Shown here in pieces: positions 1 through 37,659 of a stretch of 37,659 nucleotides of DNA (position 1 is its first letter; every line of letters begins with the position of its first letter). The DNA lies in the NCBI GenBank assembly GCA_003155915.1, contig PMFA01000002.1, positions 1 through 37,659 on the forward strand, given 5' to 3'. The stretch comes from Acidimicrobiaceae bacterium. Its GTDB lineage: Bacteria; Actinomycetota; Acidimicrobiia; Acidimicrobiales; RAAP-2. Both the position numbers and the translations under genes were made by a program. Under the pieces are notes generated by a model. That model had not been told where the DNA came from. It did no database searches and saw nothing but the letters and a program-made list of their open reading frames with translations.

Positions 1-53
1 CCCCGGACCCCTTGCATGCCATGCAAGTGCTCTACCAGCTGAGCTATACCCCC
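1..53 (-). tRNA. tRNA-Ala(GGC), 3' part cut off by window edge
   Basis: Reading the minus strand from 53 gives GGGGGTATAGCTCAGCTGG, the typical start of a bacterial tRNA-Ala with its acceptor 5' strand and D-arm. The anticodon arm follows, with CTTGC/GCAAG pairing around a 7-nt loop ATGGCAT, which puts GGC at positions 34-36. The variable region begins and the T-arm and acceptor 3' strand lie outside the window, so about 20 nt are missing. Confidence 0.93.
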
Positions 54-172: not shown

Positions 173-385
173 TTAGGCCCGAATGGATCTCTTCGACGGC
201 TTCGGGATCTCAATGCCTTGTTTCTTTGCCGTATCCAACCATGCTTCAACGGCGACTTCAACCTCTTCGACCGCGGCTTGTGGGGTTTCTCCATGACCGG
301 AACAAAATGCTAAATCCGGGACGTTGGCAATCCAGACTTGGTCTTCGTCGCTCCAAAACACTTCAATTGGATAAATCTGCGTCAC
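173..385 (-). CDS. hicB: HicB-family antitoxin (short form)
   Basis: A 70-residue protein with the HicB partial RNase H-like fold. The N-terminal strands (YPIEVFWSDEDQVWIANVPDL), the G-H-G-E-T-P turn and the helix AAVEEVEVAVEAWLDTAKKQG fit the family. HicB proteins bind and neutralise the HicA mRNA interferase. The start is GTG at 385, overlapping the hicA stop by four bases (GTGA), with AGGAG about 6 nt upstream, so it is co-transcribed after hicA. The protein ends soon after the fold (KPSKRSIRA) and has no visible C-terminal HTH or ribbon-helix-helix domain, so direct operator binding by this HicB is doubtful. The family call is strong; the function in this strain is inferred. Confidence 0.85.
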   Translation of the reverse strand: MTQIYPIEVFWSDEDQVWIANVPDLAFCSGHGETPQAAVEEVEVAVEAWLDTAKKQGIEIPKPSKRSIRA

Positions 386-639
386 GAGCTCTCCTCTAGT
401 CTCAAATTGTACCGGCGAATAATGCTCGCGATTTGGCGGACTTGATACGGCTTCGCGTCGCCATTTTCATGCTGCAAGTTCACCAACTCGCGCACCCCCA
501 TCTGGATGTAGACGTGATGACTTCCACGTCCTCCCGTTTCGGTGAAACCAAGGTCGATCAGAAGTTGCACGAGGTCGCCGAACGCAATATTCGCTACTTC
601 CCCTCGCAGAATTCGAGCTAGAAGTCGGCGTGAATTCAT
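382..639 (-). CDS. hicA: HicA-family toxin (mRNA interferase)
   Basis: An 85-residue HicA-type dsRBD-fold protein. The motif GRGSHHVYI carries the conserved catalytic His, and the C-terminal part (KPYQVRQIASIIRRYNL) matches the HicA variant found in many actinobacteria and cyanobacteria. HicA cleaves mRNA independently of ribosomes until HicB binds it. I chose ATG at 639 (MNSRRLLARIL) over the upstream GTG at 666. Homologues begin at this point, and TACGGT at 646-651 lies exactly 6 nt before this ATG, as expected for a leaderless transcript. The toxin gene precedes the antitoxin gene, the usual hicAB order. Confidence 0.84.
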   Translation of the reverse strand: MNSRRLLARILRGEVANIAFGDLVQLLIDLGFTETGGRGSHHVYIQMGVRELVNLQHENGDAKPYQVRQIASIIRRYNLRLEESS

Positions 640-645
640 TGTCAG

Positions 646-651
646 ACCGTA
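646..651 (-). promoter_or_regulatory. -10 element of hicAB (leaderless)
   Basis: On the minus strand TACGGT is followed by six bases (CTGACA) and then the ATG of hicA. It fits the TANNNT-N6-start pattern seen before several other genes here. No clear -35 hexamer is visible. Confidence 0.5.
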
Positions 652-723
652 CGTGATGGTTGTCACATCGAAGGATCTGTGATCGATGATTGTGACGAGA
701 AACGATCGATCTCGTTCTTTGAC

Positions 724-1410
724 TCAACTGAGAATGACGTCGCAAAATTCTGACGGCTGAGAGAGGAACGGCGAATGATCACTCTCCAAACTCAACGCAA
801 AGTCGCACTCTTCTGACATCAACTGTTGGATCTGAGGATTCACTGCGTGGTCGTTCGAGCACCGTAAATAGATGGTCTCTGTTCGCGAGTTCTCGGACTC
901 CCGGTGGGTTCGAAAACTCGCGAGCGTCTGCGTCGAAAGTTGCTCGACGGCCCATTGTGCGGTCTCTGCCGTGCATTGGTTGTAGAGAGCTTCACCCGCC
1001 TGGTCGGACTTCAATCGAAGAAAATCGCCCCTGACTTCGATGGCGTCATCAAGGAGCGTTCGCACCCGAATTCGTCGTGACACTTCGGTCGCGCTCTCAC
1101 CGGGACCGGGAATGAGCGCTGCTACGTAGATGCACTTTTGAAGGTTTTGTATTCGCGAGGCAACTTCCGCCGCGACCGCGCCGCCATAACTATGGGCGAC
1201 CAGCACGTACGGGCCGTCGTCGTTGGCCAGGGCGGCGACCGCTTCCGCATCCTCGGCCAGACCCGTCTGCGGACCGGCATCGTTCCTCGAACTAGGCAGG
1301 TCGACGGCCCGCCACGCGACTCCTCGTTGGTCCAACTCAACTCCGACGTCGCGCCAGCACCACGCGCCACCCCACGCGCCGTGCACGAGAATGTACGTCG
1401 GAGAACTCAC
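724..1410 (-). CDS. alpha/beta hydrolase
   Basis: About 228 residues of an alpha/beta-hydrolase fold of the esterase / hydroxynitrile-lyase-like group. Visible motifs are the oxyanion-hole segment HGAWGG near the N-terminus, the nucleophile elbow HSYGG (Ser), SNDHAV (probable acid region) and the C-terminal SDHSPF (His). I take GTG at 1410 (VSSPTYILVHG) as the start: the fold begins here, and a longer reading frame would run into leuS on the other strand. A weak AAAGAT lies 6 nt upstream, and another -10 candidate, TACGGT at 1447-1452, lies further out. The substrate cannot be told from sequence. It is divergent from leuS and downstream of nothing co-directional, so it is probably transcribed alone. 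Confidence 0.8.
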   Translation of the reverse strand: MSSPTYILVHGAWGGAWCWRDVGVELDQRGVAWRAVDLPSSRNDAGPQTGLAEDAEAVAALANDDGPYVLVAHSYGGAVAAEVASRIQNLQKCIYVAALIPGPGESATEVSRRIRVRTLLDDAIEVRGDFLRLKSDQAGEALYNQCTAETAQWAVEQLSTQTLASFRTHRESENSRTETIYLRCSNDHAVNPQIQQLMSEECDFALSLESDHSPFLSQPSEFCDVILS

Positions 1411-1450
1411 GTCGTCATCTTTCCCGACGGGGGGAGTGACTGCCAAACCG

Positions 1451-1456
1451 TAGAAT
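1451..1456 (+). promoter_or_regulatory. -10 element of leuS (leaderless)
   Basis: TAGAAT is followed by GTCGAG (6 nt) and the leuS ATG at 1463. No Shine-Dalgarno sequence precedes this start, so a transcript beginning at or next to the ATG is the simplest reading. Confidence 0.55.
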
Positions 1457-1462
1457 GTCGAG

Positions 1463-3931
1463 ATGGCGCGGCCTTTTGACGTAATGAAAATCGAGAAGAA
1501 GTGGCAGGACCGCTGGCTCGAGGACGGCACGTACGAGGTCGACAACGACGATGAGCGCGAGCGCTACTACGCCCTGTGCATGTACCCGTACCCGTCGGGC
1601 TCGGCCCACCAGGGACACGTTCGGATCTACACCTTCGGCGACGTCAACGTGCGCTACCGGACCATGTTGGGCAAGGCCGTTCTCTCGCCCTTCGGATTCG
1701 ACTCCTTCGGCCTGCCGGCGGAGAACGCCGCCATCAAAGCGGGCACCCACCCACGGATCTTCACCGAGGCGCGCATCATCGAGCTCAAATCGTCGCTGAT
1801 TCGACTCGGCGCCGTCTACGACTGGCGTCGAGAGATTCGCAGCCACGACCCCGAGATCATCCGTTGGTCGCAGACGATCTTCCTGGAGTTCTTGAAGGCC
1901 GGTCTGGCCTACCGCGCGGAGGCGCCGGTCAACTGGTGCCCCGGGTGCGGCACGGTGCTCGCCAATGAGCAGGTCCTGCCCGATGGAACCTGCGAACGAT
2001 CGGGTGACCTCGTCGAGCGACGGAACCTCGAACAGTGGTTCTTCAAGATCACCGACTACGCCGAGGAGTTGTTGCACGACCTCGACACACTCGAGTGGCC
2101 CGAACGCGTGAAGGCGATGCAGCGCAACTGGATTGGGCGCAGCGAAGGCGTTGAGTTCGATCTCGCCTTCGCCGGCGATCCCGTAAGGGCCATTCGGGTC
2201 TTCACGACGCGACCGGACACGGCCTTTGGCATCACCTACGCGGTCATCGCTCCCGAGCACCCGTTGCTCGATGAACTGACGACCGACGACGAGCGTGCCA
2301 ATGTAACTGCTCTGGTCGAACGCGCGTCGAAGGAGAGCGAGGTCGTTCGCACGGCGTCTTCAGAAGGTGGCGCGGCGCTGGAAAAGCGTGGCGCGTTCAC
2401 CGGCAGCTACGTGATCAATCCCCTCAACGGCGAATCGGTGCCGGTCTACGTCGCCGACTACGTGCTCGGCACCTACGGCACCGGCGCGATCATGGCCGTG
2501 CCCGGAGAAGACGAGCGTGACCACGCCTTCGCGTTGGCCTACGGCCTGCCGGTTGTACACACGACACAGGTGCCAGAGGGATTTGACGGTGGCGCGTACA
2601 TCGGTGAAGGCGAGAAGGTCAACTCCGGCTTCTTGAACGGACTCGACATAGTCAGCGCGAAGCTTCGCGCGACCGAGTTCCTCGCCGAGAACGCCATCGG
2701 CGTCGTCAAGGTCAACTACCGGCTCCGTGACTGGTTGATCTCGCGCCAGCGCTTCTGGGGCACCCCGATCCCGATCATCTACTGCTCGAACTGCGGGATC
2801 GTGCCGGTGCCGCAGGACCAGTTGCCGGTCCTCGCACCGGATGACGTGACGATGGACAAGACCGGCCAGTCGCCGCTCGCCACCCACGAGGAGTTTCGTA
2901 ACACGATCTGTCCGGTCTGTGGCGCGCCGGCCCATCGCGAGGCCGACACCATGGACACGTTCTGTGACTCGTCGTGGTACTTCCTGCGCTACACCGACCC
3001 TTTCACGCCCAACATGGCGTTCGATCCCGTCGAAGCGGCCAAGTGGATGCCGGTCGATCAGTACATCGGCGGCATCGAACACGCGATCCTCCATCTGCTC
3101 TATGCGCGCTTCTACGTAAAGGCCATGGTCGATATCGGTTTCGCGCCGGGCCTACCGCGTGAACCGTTCAAGCGTCAGTTCTCCCAGGGCATGATCCGAC
3201 TCTCGGGCACCAAGATGTCCAAATCCAAGGGCAATCTCGTCGCTCCCGAGGAGTACTACGAGACCGTCGGCGCCGACGGACTGCGACTCTTCCACCTCTT
3301 CGCCGGACCACCGGCCGACGACATCGACTGGACCGATCAAACCGACGAGGTCATCGACGGCTGCGGGCGATTCTTGGACCGGGTCTATCGACTCAGTCAG
3401 TACCACGAGGTCAACTTCCACGGCGGCGTCGACGACAGCGACGAAGAGGTTCGGCGCGCCGTTCACCGCACGATCGAAAAAGTGACCGACGACCTCGAAC
3501 ACTGGGGTCACAACACCGCAGTCGCGGCGCTGATGGAACTGGTGAACACCGTCTCGAAGTGGGCACGAAGTGATCACGGGGCCGAGCGCGCAACGTTTGA
3601 TGAGTCGATTGACGTGTTGGTGATGTTGCTCGCACCGATGGCGCCGCACGTCACGGCCGAAATCTGGGAGTTGCGTCATCCCGGTGAGAAGAGCGTGCAC
3701 GCGGAGCCGTGGCCCGTCGCCGATCCCGACTTGGTGAAGCGAGCGAAGGTCACGATGGTCGTGCAGGTGAACGGCAAGGTTCGCGCCCGGCTCGAAGTCC
3801 CCCCGGACATCTCGATGGCCGACGCCACCACCGAGGCGTTAGAGGACGCGGCGATCAGCGCGGTGCTGGCCGGCGCAACGCCGCAACGGGTCGTGTCACG
3901 ACCGCCTCGACTGGTGAACATCATCGTCTGA
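1463..3931 (+). CDS. leuS: leucine--tRNA ligase
   Basis: An 822-residue class Ia aminoacyl-tRNA synthetase that charges tRNA-Leu in the cytoplasm. The HIGH signature appears as HQGHVR (residues 49-54) and the KMSKS loop as KMSKS at residues 584-588. The CPGCG segment, the CP1 editing domain (roughly 220-420, with TTRPDT and the acidic editing-site region), WYFLRYTDP, and the C-terminal anticodon-binding and tail domains (VQVNGKVR) are all present, and the length is normal for bacterial LeuRS. ATG at 1463 is supported by the family's N-terminus and by TAGAAT six bases upstream. It is followed by, and overlaps by one base, the DUF45 metalloprotease gene. Confidence 0.98.
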
Positions 3932-4524
3932 TGAGCAAACACGCGAACAAGGAATCCGACACGACGATCACGATCGAGCCGCCGCGCTTCGACCGTCCCG
4001 AAGTGGAGATTCGGGCCTCGACTAGGCGAAAGAAGACCGGCACGGCGCACTGGTCCGGAAGTCGGATCGTCGTGCTGATCCCGGCTCGAATCAAGGGACG
4101 CGAGCGCATGACCTTTGTTGACGACCTCGTGGAGCGCCTCATGACGCAGCGCCCGCAGAACTCGGCCGGTGACGGATCCTTAGAAGATCGAGCGAGAGCG
4201 CTGGCCGAGCGCTACAACGACGGCGTCATGCCGAGTTCCGTTCGCTGGGTGAAGAACCAGCAGGCGCGCTGGGCGTCGTGTTCACCGGCCTCGAAGGAGA
4301 TTCGCATGTCGAATCGACTACGGCAATGCCCGGAGTGGGTCATCGACGCCGTGCTCGTCCACGAACTGGCGCACCTCCAAGAGGTCGGTCACACGCCGCG
4401 CTTCTACGAGATCGCCGACCGCTTCGAGCAACAGGAGGAGAGTGCGGTGTTCCTCGAGGGCTACGCGTTGGGCCTCGGACTTCGAATCGAAGAGGGCGAC
4501 GTCGACGTCAACTCGACTGACTAA
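3931..4524 (+). CDS. YgjP/DUF45-type zinc metallopeptidase
   Basis: 197 residues of the YgjP-like (DUF45, SprT-related) metallopeptidase family. The zinc site is HELAH at residues 144-148 with a third His at 154 in GHTPRFYE. The family hallmark just before it, VRWVKNQQARWASCS, is also present. The start ATG overlaps the leuS stop (TGATG), giving translational coupling, so I prefer it to any start inside leuS. The N-terminal strand-rich segment (residues 20-55, ending in VVLIP) fits the family. Biological substrates of bacterial YgjP proteins are poorly known. It ends 12 bp from the convergent PAC2 gene. Confidence 0.87.
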   Translation: MSKHANKESDTTITIEPPRFDRPEVEIRASTRRKKTGTAHWSGSRIVVLIPARIKGRERMTFVDDLVERLMTQRPQNSAGDGSLEDRARALAERYNDGVMPSSVRWVKNQQARWASCSPASKEIRMSNRLRQCPEWVIDAVLVHELAHLQEVGHTPRFYEIADRFEQQEESAVFLEGYALGLGLRIEEGDVDVNSTD

Positions 4525-34118: not shown

Positions 34119-34194
34119 AGGGCCGTAGCTCAGTGGTTAGAGCAGGGGACTCATAATCCCTCGGTCGTGGGTTCGATCCCCACCGGCCCTACCA
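34119..34194 (+). tRNA. tRNA with CAT anticodon (elongator Met or Ile2)
   Basis: AGGGCCG at 34119 pairs completely with CGGCCCT, followed by discriminator A and an encoded CCA (34192-34194). The anticodon loop is CTCATAA, giving CAT. The A1-U72 pair and the anticodon stem without three G-C pairs next to the loop exclude initiator tRNA. It could be elongator Met or the tRNA-Ile2 whose C34 is converted to lysidine; the body resembles E. coli tRNA-Ile2 in part. Sequence alone does not decide. The 3' half is duplicated at 34890-34923. Confidence 0.93.
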
Positions 34195-34342
34195 GGAGCC
34201 CTACTGGACAGCCCTACGGGATTGCCAAAGGTATCTCGGCGCGCCGTTTAATCGAGCAGACTCGCCAACCTAAAGTCTCAACCATGATGGTTCGGTAGTA
34301 AGACAAGCATCCCGTCTACCAACGATTCGGAAGGAACTGGTC

Positions 34343-34552
34343 ATGAAGACCTTTGAGGAGTATCTCGCCAAGGCTCAAGAGTGGATTGATGCCGCTGAAC
34401 GTCTGGACTTCGACCACGTTGCCGAAGCCGCATACTGCGCCGAAATCTCGCAGGCCTACGCAGCCCTAGCGCAACTCGCACTTGAAGATCACGTGGCCAA
34501 CGTAGAAGCCGGGGCACGACGCACATCACGCGCAATGATTGAAAACCCCTGA
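34343..34552 (+). CDS. 69-residue helical protein of unknown function
   Basis: 69 residues, mostly helix-forming (EEYLAKAQEWIDAAERLDFD, then AEISQAYAALAQLALEDHV), with no signal or membrane segment. AAGGA lies about 7 nt before the ATG at 34343. I recognise no family; the A/L/E-rich composition suggests a small helical bundle. It is the only convincing gene between the CAT tRNA and its duplicated fragment at 34890, so it may have arrived with a mobile segment. Confidence 0.65.
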   Translation: MKTFEEYLAKAQEWIDAAERLDFDHVAEAAYCAEISQAYAALAQLALEDHVANVEAGARRTSRAMIENP

Positions 34553-35029
34553 CTTGTCAAAACTGAAGATCGAGGTCGCCTTCATGTGACTCTCTCGAAC
34601 GTCTGTCTCTAAAATCTCGGCCGGGGAGACGCTCTCGAATGTCCCAATTCACTTGCGAATTCAGGGGGTCAGACTTTGCTGCAGAGAAGCAGAAATTCTC
34701 GAGTCTCAGCAACCGGTGGTTGATCGTCTTACACTGAAGTCAAGAATCAGATACAAATGCCCGTTCTGCACGAGAGCGATACAGAATCCCACGGTTTATC
34801 CCGTGGACCAAACAAACCCTCGGGACGAGATCTCTAAACACTCCGGACCATTCCGACGTCGCCGGATCACTCCCTCCGGCTGCCTCCACCTCATAATCCC
34901 TCGGTCGTGGGTTCGATCCCCACGGGCCACACTTAGAGTCCAGTCGCAAGACGTTGTAGACACAGAGTCTCCGGCTGGCTTTTGTAATTGCTACCCAGCA
35001 AAATGTCTCCTCCGTGACTTGTAGTACCG
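34553..35029 (+). other. 477-bp non-coding stretch with hairpins and tRNA fragment
   Basis: No convincing gene. Inverted repeats are present: CCACGG (34789-34794) with CCGTGG (34801-34806), 6-nt loop; GCCGGA (34861-34866) with TCCGGC (34875-34880), 8-nt loop. The second lies 9 bp before the tRNA-derived repeat at 34890. An antisense frame here contains the WGSNPRPRDYE signature, which is just the reverse translation of tRNA sequence and not a gene. Confidence 0.6.
34890..34923 (+). repeat. 34-bp duplicate of CAT-tRNA 3' half (att-like)
   Basis: The bases from the anticodon loop to the end of the T-stem of the CAT tRNA (34150-34183) recur here without mismatch, 740 bp downstream and in the same orientation. 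After this the match breaks (C becomes G), then GGCC agrees again. No 5' half, CCA or acceptor partner is present, so it is a fragment and not a tRNA gene. It resembles the attR left by integration into a tRNA gene. Confidence 0.8.
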
Positions 35030-35554
35030 ATGGACATCGTTTGTGGACAAACCGTTGCGCTGATTCAACGGGGAGAATTGGTTTTCGTGGAGACCTTTGA
35101 GGCTTGGTACAGCCGCGAACACGACCGAATGATTGCCACTTTGGCGTTATCGACCGGCGACATCGAACTCGCGGTCGAAGGCGTCGATGAAGCTTGTTCG
35201 CGGGCACTTGAGCGATGGAAGCGAATAAGCGCCATGGAGTCGCCGACGGGTTGGGTCTATCGAGTGGCCATCAATCACGCACGACGTGTGGCGCGCCGCA
35301 GAAGTATGGAACAGCGGGTTTTTCGAAAGCAAGTGCCAATGCCCGACCTTCCCGCTCCCGCTGGCGAGATTTGGAAGTTAGTCGCGTCACTGTCGGAACG
35401 TCAACGACAAGTTGTCATGTTGCGTCACGTCGCCGAAATGAGCGAGAACGAGATTGGCACGGTGTTGGGTATAAGTCGAGGGACGGTTTCAAGCACTCTG
35501 CACGACGCCCATCAGCGATTGGGCCGCCTGCTAGACGACGAAAAAGAACTTTAG
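35030..35554 (+). CDS. ECF-like RNA polymerase sigma factor
   Basis: 174 residues. The region 2-like segment is FEAWYSREHDRMIATLALSTGD through DEACSRALERWKRI and PTGWVYRVAINHARRVARR; region 4 is ASLSERQRQVVMLRHVAEMSENEIGTVLGISRGTVSSTLHDAHQRLGRLL with a clear HTH. This is the actinobacterial SigE-like/ECF pattern. The first 19 residues are not typical. GTG at 35087 (VETFEAWY) with GGGAG about 11 bp upstream is an equally good start. The next gene begins 10 bp after the stop and encodes a membrane protein that may control it. Confidence 0.82.
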   Translation: MDIVCGQTVALIQRGELVFVETFEAWYSREHDRMIATLALSTGDIELAVEGVDEACSRALERWKRISAMESPTGWVYRVAINHARRVARRRSMEQRVFRKQVPMPDLPAPAGEIWKLVASLSERQRQVVMLRHVAEMSENEIGTVLGISRGTVSSTLHDAHQRLGRLLDDEKEL

Positions 35555-35564
35555 GAGATTACGC

Positions 35565-36773
35565 ATGTCACAACTAACACGTCTTTCGCAGGCTCTTATC
35601 GACGAACCTCTCGCGCCACGCACGAACGTGGAGGATCTGCGGACGCGTAGTCGCCGGCGCCACCAACGCAGTCGCTCGATCATGGCCGGGCTACTCGTGC
35701 TCATAGTCATTGGAGCTTTCAGTTTCACGAAGATTGAAAGTACTTCTCCCTCGTTCCAAACCTTGCCGAAAATCACTACGCCGAATGTACAACTCGCGTC
35801 TTACTTCCGGGCCGCTGGTGCAGTTCCTGACGCCACGCTCCAGGCCGTTGGGCTTCCATCGAATGTGGCGGTTCCAACCAAGATCACACCATCCGTTTCC
35901 ACCGTTGCCACTAACGGAGTCGTCTCCTACGTTGGCGGCGAATACTGCCCGTACTGCGCGATTCAGCGATGGGCGCTGTTGGTGGCGCTGTCCAAGTTCG
36001 GATCGTTCACCAACCTAGACGGTCAAGTCATCTCTTCGTCGACCGACGTCTACCCGGGTCTAGCAAGCTGGAGCTTCGTCGGGGCGAAGTATTCCAGCCC
36101 GTACTTCACATTTGATCCCACCGAGCTGACCTCGTCCACTCCCAGTGACAGCGGCGGGTATCAGCCTTTAGAGAAGATGTCTGCAGGACAGCTACGCGCT
36201 TTCAATAAGTACAACCCACAAGGTGCACTTCCCTTTGTGGACATTGGCAACCACTACGTCACTCTTGGGGCGAGTGCGTCGCCGTCGGTGCTTGAGGGTC
36301 TGACTTTGGGCGACATCGGAAGTGACCTGAGCAGCGCATCGAGTCCGGTCGCCCAAGCTATTGACGGTACGGCAAACTATCTGATCGCGGCCCTCTGCAC
36401 AATGGTGCAAGGTACGACGCCGTCTCTATGCTCGACGCCCGTTATTCGCCTGGCGTCCAAAGCTCTCGCTACCGGTGTGTCGTCGTCTTCCGAGAGTCCA
36501 GGTGTCACGACGTCTCCCACACAGCCGCCGACGAACGCCCCACTGTCGGTGTGGCGAGCGTGGAGCGAGAAAGAGCGCGCATTCTTGCTTCACGCCGCCG
36601 CGAACTTTCGGTCAACGAATGCCGCGTGTACCGTACTGAAAATTGCCGTAACTCCGAATCGATACAAGAAGACGACTCTCGGCATTCCGCCGGGGGTGAC
36701 TGCGTGGGCGATAAGTCTCGAAGGCAAGTGTCCACCGGGTCACAACGGTGAGGGACTGTCCAAGTCCCCATGA
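35565..36773 (+). CDS. membrane-anchored DUF929 thioredoxin-like protein
   Basis: 402 residues. A short cytosolic N-terminus (about 38 residues, ending in a run of Arg/His) precedes one membrane helix (about 39-55, IMAGLLVLIVIGAFSF). The outer domain matches DUF929: VSYVGGEYCPYCAIQRWALLVALSKFG carries a CPYC pair (Cys128, Cys131), and PFVDIGNHYV follows as the cis-Pro-like strand. Residues 300-402 are an extra C-terminal part with two further Cys. AGGAG lies upstream of the ATG. The placement after an ECF gene suggests a regulator of it; that is inference. Confidence 0.78.
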   Translation: MSQLTRLSQALIDEPLAPRTNVEDLRTRSRRRHQRSRSIMAGLLVLIVIGAFSFTKIESTSPSFQTLPKITTPNVQLASYFRAAGAVPDATLQAVGLPSNVAVPTKITPSVSTVATNGVVSYVGGEYCPYCAIQRWALLVALSKFGSFTNLDGQVISSSTDVYPGLASWSFVGAKYSSPYFTFDPTELTSSTPSDSGGYQPLEKMSAGQLRAFNKYNPQGALPFVDIGNHYVTLGASASPSVLEGLTLGDIGSDLSSASSPVAQAIDGTANYLIAALCTMVQGTTPSLCSTPVIRLASKALATGVSSSSESPGVTTSPTQPPTNAPLSVWRAWSEKERAFLLHAAANFRSTNAACTVLKIAVTPNRYKKTTLGIPPGVTAWAISLEGKCPPGHNGEGLSKSP

Positions 36774-36906
36774 CCTGATCCACGTTCGCTGACCGGTTCG
36801 GAACTCCACTCGACCTGGAAGAAGTCTGATCCCGAAGATTGTGACGAAAGTACCTAAATCTACGGATATTCAACGATGTAGACGTGGGCTTGGGAAGAGG
36901 GGGATT

Positions 36907-37500
36907 ATGAAGCGACATTCTCGAATTTCTGTGATGATTGCGATGGCGGTACTCTCATTTACATTTGCCGGCATTGGACCAGCGGCAGCTACGTCGATGG
37001 CCCAGCTTCGGACCGAAGCTCTGAGCATTCACCAGATGCCCCCCGGGTGGACCGCACGTCAGCCCGCTGAAGATCTTCGGATGGGCTGTCTCACGCATCT
37101 CCTAGAGCCAAACGGGGTCACGGAGACGCACTTTGAAGAGGTCTATTTCCTTGGCGTAGGAAGCCTGCCGCTACTTGTCGAGACGATGACGACGTATTCG
37201 AATGTCACGGCGGCTTACAAGAAGGTCGCGGCGAGCATCGCAAATTGTCAGAAAGTGGCCGGAGTGCTGAAGGGTTATCCGGTGACCGGAACCGTACGTC
37301 CATTGAGAATGCCTCATTACGGAAACGCAAGCGTCGTGTATTTGATCACTCTGTCCGGAAAGCACATAACGGTGAGATCCGATTATGCAATTGTTCGCAA
37401 GGGTGGCGTTATCCTGGCCCTGTTGGAAGGAAATTACCCTGCCGTCAGTCTCGGTCAATTTCAAAGCTTCCTGATCAAAGCGGTGGCAAGAGTCAAGTAA
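36907..37500 (+). CDS. secreted protein of unknown function
   Basis: 197 residues with a signal peptide (MKRHSRISVMIAMAVLSFTF, cleavage likely after PAAA near residue 28). The mature part begins around residue 30 and has two Cys (GCLTHL and IANCQKV) that could pair. Segments such as HQMPPGWTARQ and SNVTAAYKKVAASI recall actinobacterial secreted sensor-like domains, but I cannot name a family. ATG at 36907 is supported by GAGGGGG just upstream and by the signal peptide; a longer reading from GTG 36841 would hide the signal. Confidence 0.72.
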   Translation: MKRHSRISVMIAMAVLSFTFAGIGPAAATSMAQLRTEALSIHQMPPGWTARQPAEDLRMGCLTHLLEPNGVTETHFEEVYFLGVGSLPLLVETMTTYSNVTAAYKKVAASIANCQKVAGVLKGYPVTGTVRPLRMPHYGNASVVYLITLSGKHITVRSDYAIVRKGGVILALLEGNYPAVSLGQFQSFLIKAVARVK

Positions 37501-37599
37501 GAGAAGTAGGGCGATTCGGTGTGCCACGTCGGGTCAAGGTGCAACACCTCACTGCTCGTGGTTGCGTCTTCAGAATTCCCACGTTTCATCCCGTTACCA

Positions 37600-37634
37600 A
37601 TCCGACACCACCGGACGCATCCGACACCACCGGA
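37600..37634. repeat. two tandem copies of a 16-bp unit, 19-bp period
   Basis: ATCCGACACCACCGGA occurs at 37600-37615 and again at 37619-37634. It lies in the non-coding end of the window; whether more copies follow cannot be seen. Confidence 0.6.
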
Positions 37635-37659
37635 TGATGAGCGCAGTGAATCTCGGTTG

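Follow-up and report, generated by a model that had tools for sequence, protein, structure and literature searches.

The window analyzed here, by which we mean the whole stretch of 37,659 nt taken from contig PMFA01000002.1 of assembly GCA_003155915.1 (a genome that is 95.65% complete, here G000), carries near its right-hand end an intact tRNA-Met gene followed by a row of small gene-bearing segments (Table 1). Part of this gene is duplicated. As the initial annotation had noticed, a direct repeat of 34 bp is present in two exact copies, at 34150-34183 and 34890-34923, which lie 740 bp apart; exact matching found no third copy in the 37,659-nt window. The repeat spans the tRNA from the first anticodon-loop base through the T-stem, and beyond it the second copy has diverged (CGGCCCTA versus GGGCCACA). 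The 3' half of the gene, from 34150 to 34194, forms the attachment core that adjoins cassette 1. A partial tRNA lies on the minus strand at the contig start (window positions 1 to 53; Rfam, 31.9 bits).

Table 1. Features at and behind the tRNA-Met gene, in window coordinates
Feature	Position	Strand	Basis or remark
tRNA-Met, anticodon CAT, intact, array anchor	34119..34194	+	ARAGORN and Rfam; anchors arrays in relatives too
Cassette 1, low GC, one small gene	34195..34923	+	Between cores at 34150 and 34890
69-aa ORF of cassette 1	34343..34552	+	Similar DNA in G075 array
P-arm family A, 104 bp: ATCCCAC-type repeat pair and CCGAC/CCGGA units	34786..34889	+	R1, E 8.6e-15
Displaced tRNA-Met 3'-half core fragment, cassette 1/2 boundary	34890..34923	+	Exact 34-mer
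Putative cassette 2a, right edge approximate	34924..36770	+	Pfam; DNA similarity to G008 array
ECF-type sigma factor gene, cassette 2a	35030-35554		Pfam
DUF929 gene, cassette 2a	35565-36773		Pfam
Putative cassette 2b	36771..37576	+	DNA similarity to G070 segment
219-aa ORF of cassette 2b, no Pfam match	36841-37500		
Next P-arm, family A	37577..37659	+	R1 match G000:C20:37577-37676

The segment between the two copies is richer in AT, as first described, with 54.1% GC compared with a mean of 63.5% (standard deviation, 2.8%) for 695-bp windows in positions 1 to 34000, where 1.6% of such windows are equally low. The 69-aa gene that had been read there is present; it has no Pfam match at an E value of 0.01. 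Positions 34318-34813 are 85.5% identical to L107:15747-16242, which is part of one segment of an array in genome G075. No Phage_integrase match occurs on this contig, in agreement with the initial description of a non-autonomous element without an integrase. The idea of a single decayed or excised element found no support, the segment being the first of a row of cassettes with arrays in relatives; the other suggestion, that the fragment marks the edge of a larger accessory block to its right, proved right, since the row of cassettes continues. Missed earlier was a conserved block of 104 bp that precedes the second copy and reappears at 37577-37659.

Farther right, positions 34853-36728 are 78% identical to L041:2404-4273, in a match that starts within a P-arm and ends within one segment of the G008 array, and a weaker relative of the sigma factor gene pair (72%) lies near a Lys-CTT core in G036, in the opposite orientation. 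Positions 36771-37659 are 95.8% identical to L109:8166-9055, inside a 1,107-bp segment of G070. Because the 219-aa gene forms a separate cassette in G070, the second unit of the window looks like two cassettes that have lost their joint, and judging from the sequence the boundary core between cassettes 2a and 2b seems to have been lost. A scaffold gap (NN, at contig position 37660) truncates the P-arm at 37577; the contig extends to 40051, with a third core at 39196. Some segments, including the 4,306-bp one of the window, probably hide a core that was lost or left unassembled.

An upstream arm joined to tRNA 3' halves

Among elements that target tRNA genes by means of tyrosine integrases, the anticodon-loop class has an identity block reaching from the anticodon loop to the 3' end of the tRNA. 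The identity block of the attachment core described here likewise starts at the anticodon loop and runs toward the tRNA 3' end. A search of 61 genomes revealed many tandem copies of the tRNA 3' half together with the conserved block beside a tRNA-Asn/tRNA-Met pair. The early reading of an attachment-site duplication within a tRNA gene was right. From an alignment of 23 block copies (A1) we built a sequence-only model, R1; its match to 34786-34889 arises by construction because that copy belongs to the alignment from which the model was built.

We refer to the conserved block as the P-arm of family A. It comprises 64 to 125 bp and stands before a tRNA 3' half cut at the first anticodon-loop base. 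The arm opens with ATCCCAC-N5-ATCCCAC, continues with CCGACACCACCGGAC-type units spaced at about 20 bp, and at Met cores mostly has CCAC as its last bases, immediately ahead of the anticodon loop. Its lengths at the 27 sites where the start was found are discrete (122 to 125, 104 to 106, or 64 bp), the shorter arms lacking whole units. The association with tRNA sequence is tight: CTNNTAATC, allowing up to two mismatches, follows within 30 nt in 104 of 106 distinct P-arm matches (score of at least 40, reaching model position 113, with at least 25 nt behind), as against 4.1% of random 30-mers. The exact 34-mer is present in 44 of the 110 Met cores outside tRNA genes.

The same arm serves Met-CAT, Lys-TTT, and Lys-CTT cores alike. 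The fetched loci contain 177 tRNA-like fragments, and a family A arm stands before 93 of the 117 derived from Met, 16 of the 43 from Lys-TTT, and 1 of the 5 from Lys-CTT; these fractions are no census because the loci were picked for their P-arms. Other tRNA-like fragments bear other arms, which we assign to families B, C, D, and E. The genome of the window itself has eight tRNA-Lys(TTT) fragments on one contig (G000:C1; L122, L188, and L189), one of them reversed; those of their arms that could be assigned belong to families A, C, D, and E. A TCGG..CCGA..GAACCCGCACG stretch recurs a short way upstream of several P-arms of family A (L119 5880, L134 4440, and L124 4156); it has a BLAST match to a reversed tRNA-Leu T-arm and is perhaps a terminator or another site.

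R1 matches 42 of 99 genomes of the genus at an E value of 0.001 or better (26 of 59 high-quality genomes). The arrangement is not fixed among relatives: the P-arm has no match in 57 of the 99 genomes, a count obtained from incomplete MAGs under strict filters, and cassette content differs. At the level of the order, R1 matches 6 of 298 genomes at an E value of 1e-5, 3 of them outside the genus. The ATCCCAC arm also stands before CTTTTAATC, CTCTTAATC, and CTTCTAATC cores in other families of the order (L265, L266, and L267), and so the arm reaches more widely than the genus. A cassette-type 38-mer was found in 26 stretches, 23 of which are titled as Acidimicrobiaceae MAGs from palsa, bog, or fen; the 39-mer of the window had no match in the genome-contig collection, from which its own genome was possibly left out. 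In viral contigs the exact 20-mer of the P-arm start had no match. The exact 34-mer matches five viral stretches (L027 to L031), all of which hold whole tRNA-Met genes and not attachment fragments; in four of the five a tRNA-Gln adjoins within the fetched piece.

Cassette arrays in related genomes

Up to 16 cores follow one another behind tRNA-Met (G063), and G075 has 15. We defined segments as stretches of less than 6 kb between successive Met cores, leaving out longer ones (two of these in G063); 26 contigs of 24 genomes gave 101 items and, minus one of zero length, 100 segments. Their median length is 1,394 bp (quartiles, 906 and 2,070; range, 292 to 4,306). Family A P-arms form the end of 83 segments, and a family B motif is present at 11 of the remaining 17. 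All 77 homologous segment pairs share one orientation relative to the core.

Individual cassettes are shared by several species and occur in several orders. Fourteen clusters, defined by more than 60% mutual cover, comprise 36 segments; one example is a stretch of 1,228 bp that is 99.8% identical in G017 and G066. Related genomes also differ by cassette gain or loss at the same place. G063 and G079 have about 10 kb of common cassette order at 98 to 99% identity, and G079 has one extra cassette of 1.7 kb, with joints CTCATAATCC and CTCTTAATCC in the anticodon-loop part of the core. This one-cassette difference rests partly on scaffolding because the extra cassette has a scaffold gap in its right-hand P-arm (NN at L111:10010). 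Flank distances vary likewise: in four genomes without P-arm matches, the distance from tRNA-Met to a conserved flank behind it is 2.3, 4.3, 5.6, and 8.7 kb, and in G075 it is about 37 kb. The flank was matched in 4 of 10 array-less genomes and at 1 of 6 array far ends, the five other far ends having no match at the threshold used.

Divergence of cores from the tRNA rises with distance (pooled Spearman rho, 0.33; P = 0.008; 65 cores). The trend is strongest in G075 (rho, 0.72; P = 0.002), and other arrays are not significant alone.

Open reading frames in the segments, chosen roughly by length and codon composition, lie in both orientations (80 forward and 102 reverse). A Pfam scan of 97 main ORFs yielded 59 matching families, 25 of which were listed; among the matches listed are alpha/beta hydrolases (up to 9), GGDEF domains (5), YoeB toxins (5), Na/Ca exchangers (5), PAS domains (3), Fic proteins (3), and Nramp transporters (2), and a Phd/YefM antitoxin match stands beside one YoeB toxin. 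PADLOC matches are few (12 models, with 1 or 2 members each). YefM-YoeB-type cassettes that are similar in DNA (L034 6144-6676, L043 6444-6943, L044 17396-17895, L113 8302-8559, and L038 3705-4237) have a family A arm end in G029 and not in four other genomes, one cargo thus standing on different attachment families.

Integrases and matching arm repeats

An integrase encoded in the element is a mark of the anticodon-loop class; within the tRNA-Met arrays of 12 genomes there is no match to Phage_integrase (PF00589). Integrases beside the same arm repeats were found elsewhere. Directly behind tRNA-Met in G078 lies a gene for a 393-aa tyrosine integrase (L254:1886-3067), preceded by ATCCCACGTAAATCCCAC; the order is tRNA-Met, AATCCCACGTAAATCCCACGTGG, integrase, and a long island. 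By eye, this island (L254 1886-20000) contains helicases, a methyltransferase, and restriction-type proteins and is possibly a defence island. In G066, a relative with 68% identity lies behind a tRNA-Lys(TTT) 3' end at a contig start, with ATCCCACGGATTTCCCAC before it. Pfam matches to catalytic and SAM-like domains are present in both enzymes, which we call Int-A; their arm-binding match stays below the cutoff. The genome of the window has no close Int-A relative (the best is 35% identical), and the array-bearing genomes G017, G034, G070, and G075 have no Int-A match at an E value of 1e-40.

Allowing one mismatch at most, we counted 133 ATCCCAC pairs in the fetched sequence (1.7 Mb, partly overlapping) and 4 in shuffled sequence. 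P-arm matches account for 115 of the 133. Three of the other 18 precede integrase genes, in G078, G066, and G026, and the rest include additional P-arms and positions without an explanation. The motif is not confined to a single enzyme, since in G026 the pair precedes an integrase that is 45% identical and lies at initiator tRNA-Met. Within the segments the pair stands before the next core in 73 of 100 and within 350 nt after a core in 3 of 100, because of which a one-armed site must be assumed to work.

Arms of the other families, whose pairs were searched as exact 7-bp pairs, recur beside integrases at tRNA-Lys for families C and E and for integrase-bearing D elements. AGGCCTC (family C) is found in 5 of 12 fragments, and the same pair lies between tRNA-Lys(TTT) and an integrase in G107, with a close variant in G078 at Lys-CTT. 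ATCCCTA (family E) is found in 3 of 3 fragments and also at integrases of G077, G076, and G092. Family D has TGTAGCC in 2 and TCTAGCC in 1 of 9 fragments, as is also seen at integrases of G061 and G079. TGCTACT (family B) is present in 7 of 15 fragments, and no integrase among those compared matches this arm. The integrases of G101 and G029 have pairs without a cassette family, and the pairs of G005 and G066 are not exact repeats in the exact 7-bp comparison. An integrase gene in G075 (C120) lies directly behind a family A P-arm with a Lys core, the other end of its element being a family D arm.

Of the integrases about 35 kb upstream of tRNA-Met that were considered as candidate movers, the two in G063 (C35:6042 and 12222) were rejected because they belong to tandem elements at tRNA-Ala(GGC); G026, G028, and G036 have similarly placed candidates. 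A separate stretch of about 62 kb in G078 (C1; L144 10284-10405 and L190 9175-9250) runs from tRNA-Lys(CTT) and an integrase to a family A P-arm and, by eye, contains a SIR2-like gene.

Proposed movement of cassettes in trans and relation to known systems

We consider it probable that the window holds the proximal end of a tRNA-anchored array of non-autonomous cassettes moved in trans. A cassette would be an integrative element of 0.3 to 4 kb with one attachment site, which consists of an upstream arm with 7-bp repeats and a copy of the tRNA 3' half that starts with the anticodon loop and includes the acceptor end. From the assemblies we infer a cycle in which a tyrosine integrase, supplied in trans by larger elements using the same tRNA, would bind the arm repeats and catalyze recombination between the attachment site of a cassette circle and the tRNA-Met anticodon loop. 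Upon integration, the cassette's own 3' half would restore the tRNA, and the old 3' half would be displaced downstream, behind the new P-arm. Through repeated insertion an array would then arise in which the most recent cassettes lie closest to the tRNA, and recombination between cores would remove cassettes. In the assemblies no excised circle was seen. Mobilization in trans is suggested by the recurrence of the ATCCCAC pair before an integrase at tRNA-Met (G078) and at tRNA-Lys (G066). More tentatively, and with some doubt on our part, the arrays may constitute a gene-capture system, a functional counterpart of integrons on tRNA genes, with standardized one-armed cassettes and several arm families per tRNA, each of them with a helper integrase from other mobile elements that target these tRNA genes.

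The strongest competitor is ordinary tandem accretion, in which autonomous phages or islands would have inserted with integrases of their own that were later deleted, with no class of cassettes mobilized in trans. The integrase-bearing tandem elements at tRNA-Ala in G063 fit such a history, as do the integrase element of G075 (C120), which sits between tRNA-Lys fragments right behind its family A P-arm, the large integrase-bearing islands that use the same tRNA targets, and the decay of many cores. However, different species share the same short cassettes, at high identity and with the same ends, Phage_integrase matches are absent from the tRNA-Met arrays of 12 genomes, and the arm pair is kept before the next core far more often than after a core (73 versus 3 of 100 segments). 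On balance we regard accretion alone as unlikely.

Two further readings carry very little weight beside cassettes moved in trans. That the block and the tRNA fragment together are a conserved RNA gene or a tRNA-like processing signal would agree with the T-loop kept in many copies, with the strong conservation of the block, and with the folding of the window's own site, which beats shuffles (z scores, -2.65 and -2.28). Yet the T-stem is changed in 42 of the 110 Met cores outside tRNA genes and broken in 33 of these 42, RNAalifold predicts 4 pairs at -0.96 kcal/mol with almost no covariation for the P-arm (23 sites), and the three other sites, folded as DNA, are no better than shuffles (6 of 8 strands in all). 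The RNA reading is accordingly most improbable, and the fragment is not kept as an RNA, a possibility that had been raised at the outset. A true integron, with an IntI acting on folded single-stranded attC sites, could account for small tandem cassettes, for toxin-antitoxin cassettes, and for the trend to newer ones near the anchor; nevertheless, conservation of the sites concerns their sequence and mostly not their fold, the integrases whose repeats match are of the phage type (SAM-like and weak arm-binding matches), and the anchor is a tRNA gene, so that we give this explanation hardly any credence.

The array belongs with additive islands at tRNA genes, a known kind, of which it is a variant that resembles an integron, lacks an integrase, and has a defined attachment site. 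Cassettes inserted at tRNA genes, with content that varies between strains, are described in the available portions of reports on "Ca. Actinomarinales" (PMC7771536), Alteromonas (PMC4119200), and "Ca. Methylopumilus" (fGI-2; PMC10872708), and direct repeats of part of the tRNA occur in the islands of the first and the last (PMC7771536, PMC10872708); in Methylopumilus the repeats correspond to the last 20 nt of tRNA-Lys(CTT), and island size varies between 330 bp and 42 kb (PMC10872708). For additive islands these portions describe no arm, no standard site per cassette, and no integrase arm match (PMC7771536, PMC4119200, PMC10872708), whereas the present arrays have segments of 0.3 to 4 kb with up to 16 cores in a row. 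They resemble integrons in their tandem small cassettes, single family of sites, toxin-antitoxin cassettes, and newest-near-anchor trend, and differ in having a tRNA gene instead of attI, an arm-type site in place of a folded attC, Met arrays that show no integrase match in 12 genomes, and genes in both orientations.

Cis-mobilizable elements are moved by the integrase of a related element; for the cassettes described here, the observation bearing on such movement is the match of the arms. The ssrA islands of Dehalococcoides, according to the part of the report available, are likewise tandem and bounded by direct repeats of an RNA gene, some of them without integration genes (PMC3146451). They involve a serine recombinase, and sixteen have a six-gene integration module (PMC3146451), whereas the units here are smaller and have no such module. 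Tycheposons share the tRNA target and the tyrosine recombinase and, as described in the corresponding portion of PMC10872708, are cargo transposons of 4 to 200 kb, in contrast to the present units, which measure 0.3 to 4 kb and have no recombinase gene. The available portions of PMC3146451, PMC10872708, PMC7771536, PMC4119200, and PMC5217437, all from the open-licence PMC literature, do not describe arms of single cassettes that match an integrase.

Additive islands at tRNA genes have been reported in several lineages, and in the portions of those reports available, what moves small cassettes without integrases is left unexplained. Here the site is defined to the base and can be regarded as a kind of address label linking a cassette family to an integrase family. 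Should this pairing hold in vitro, it would explain how single genes, among them toxin-antitoxin pairs, transporters, signalling proteins, and hydrolases, circulate in uncultured peatland Actinomycetota without integrons, and it would provide a sequence rule for finding such arrays elsewhere.
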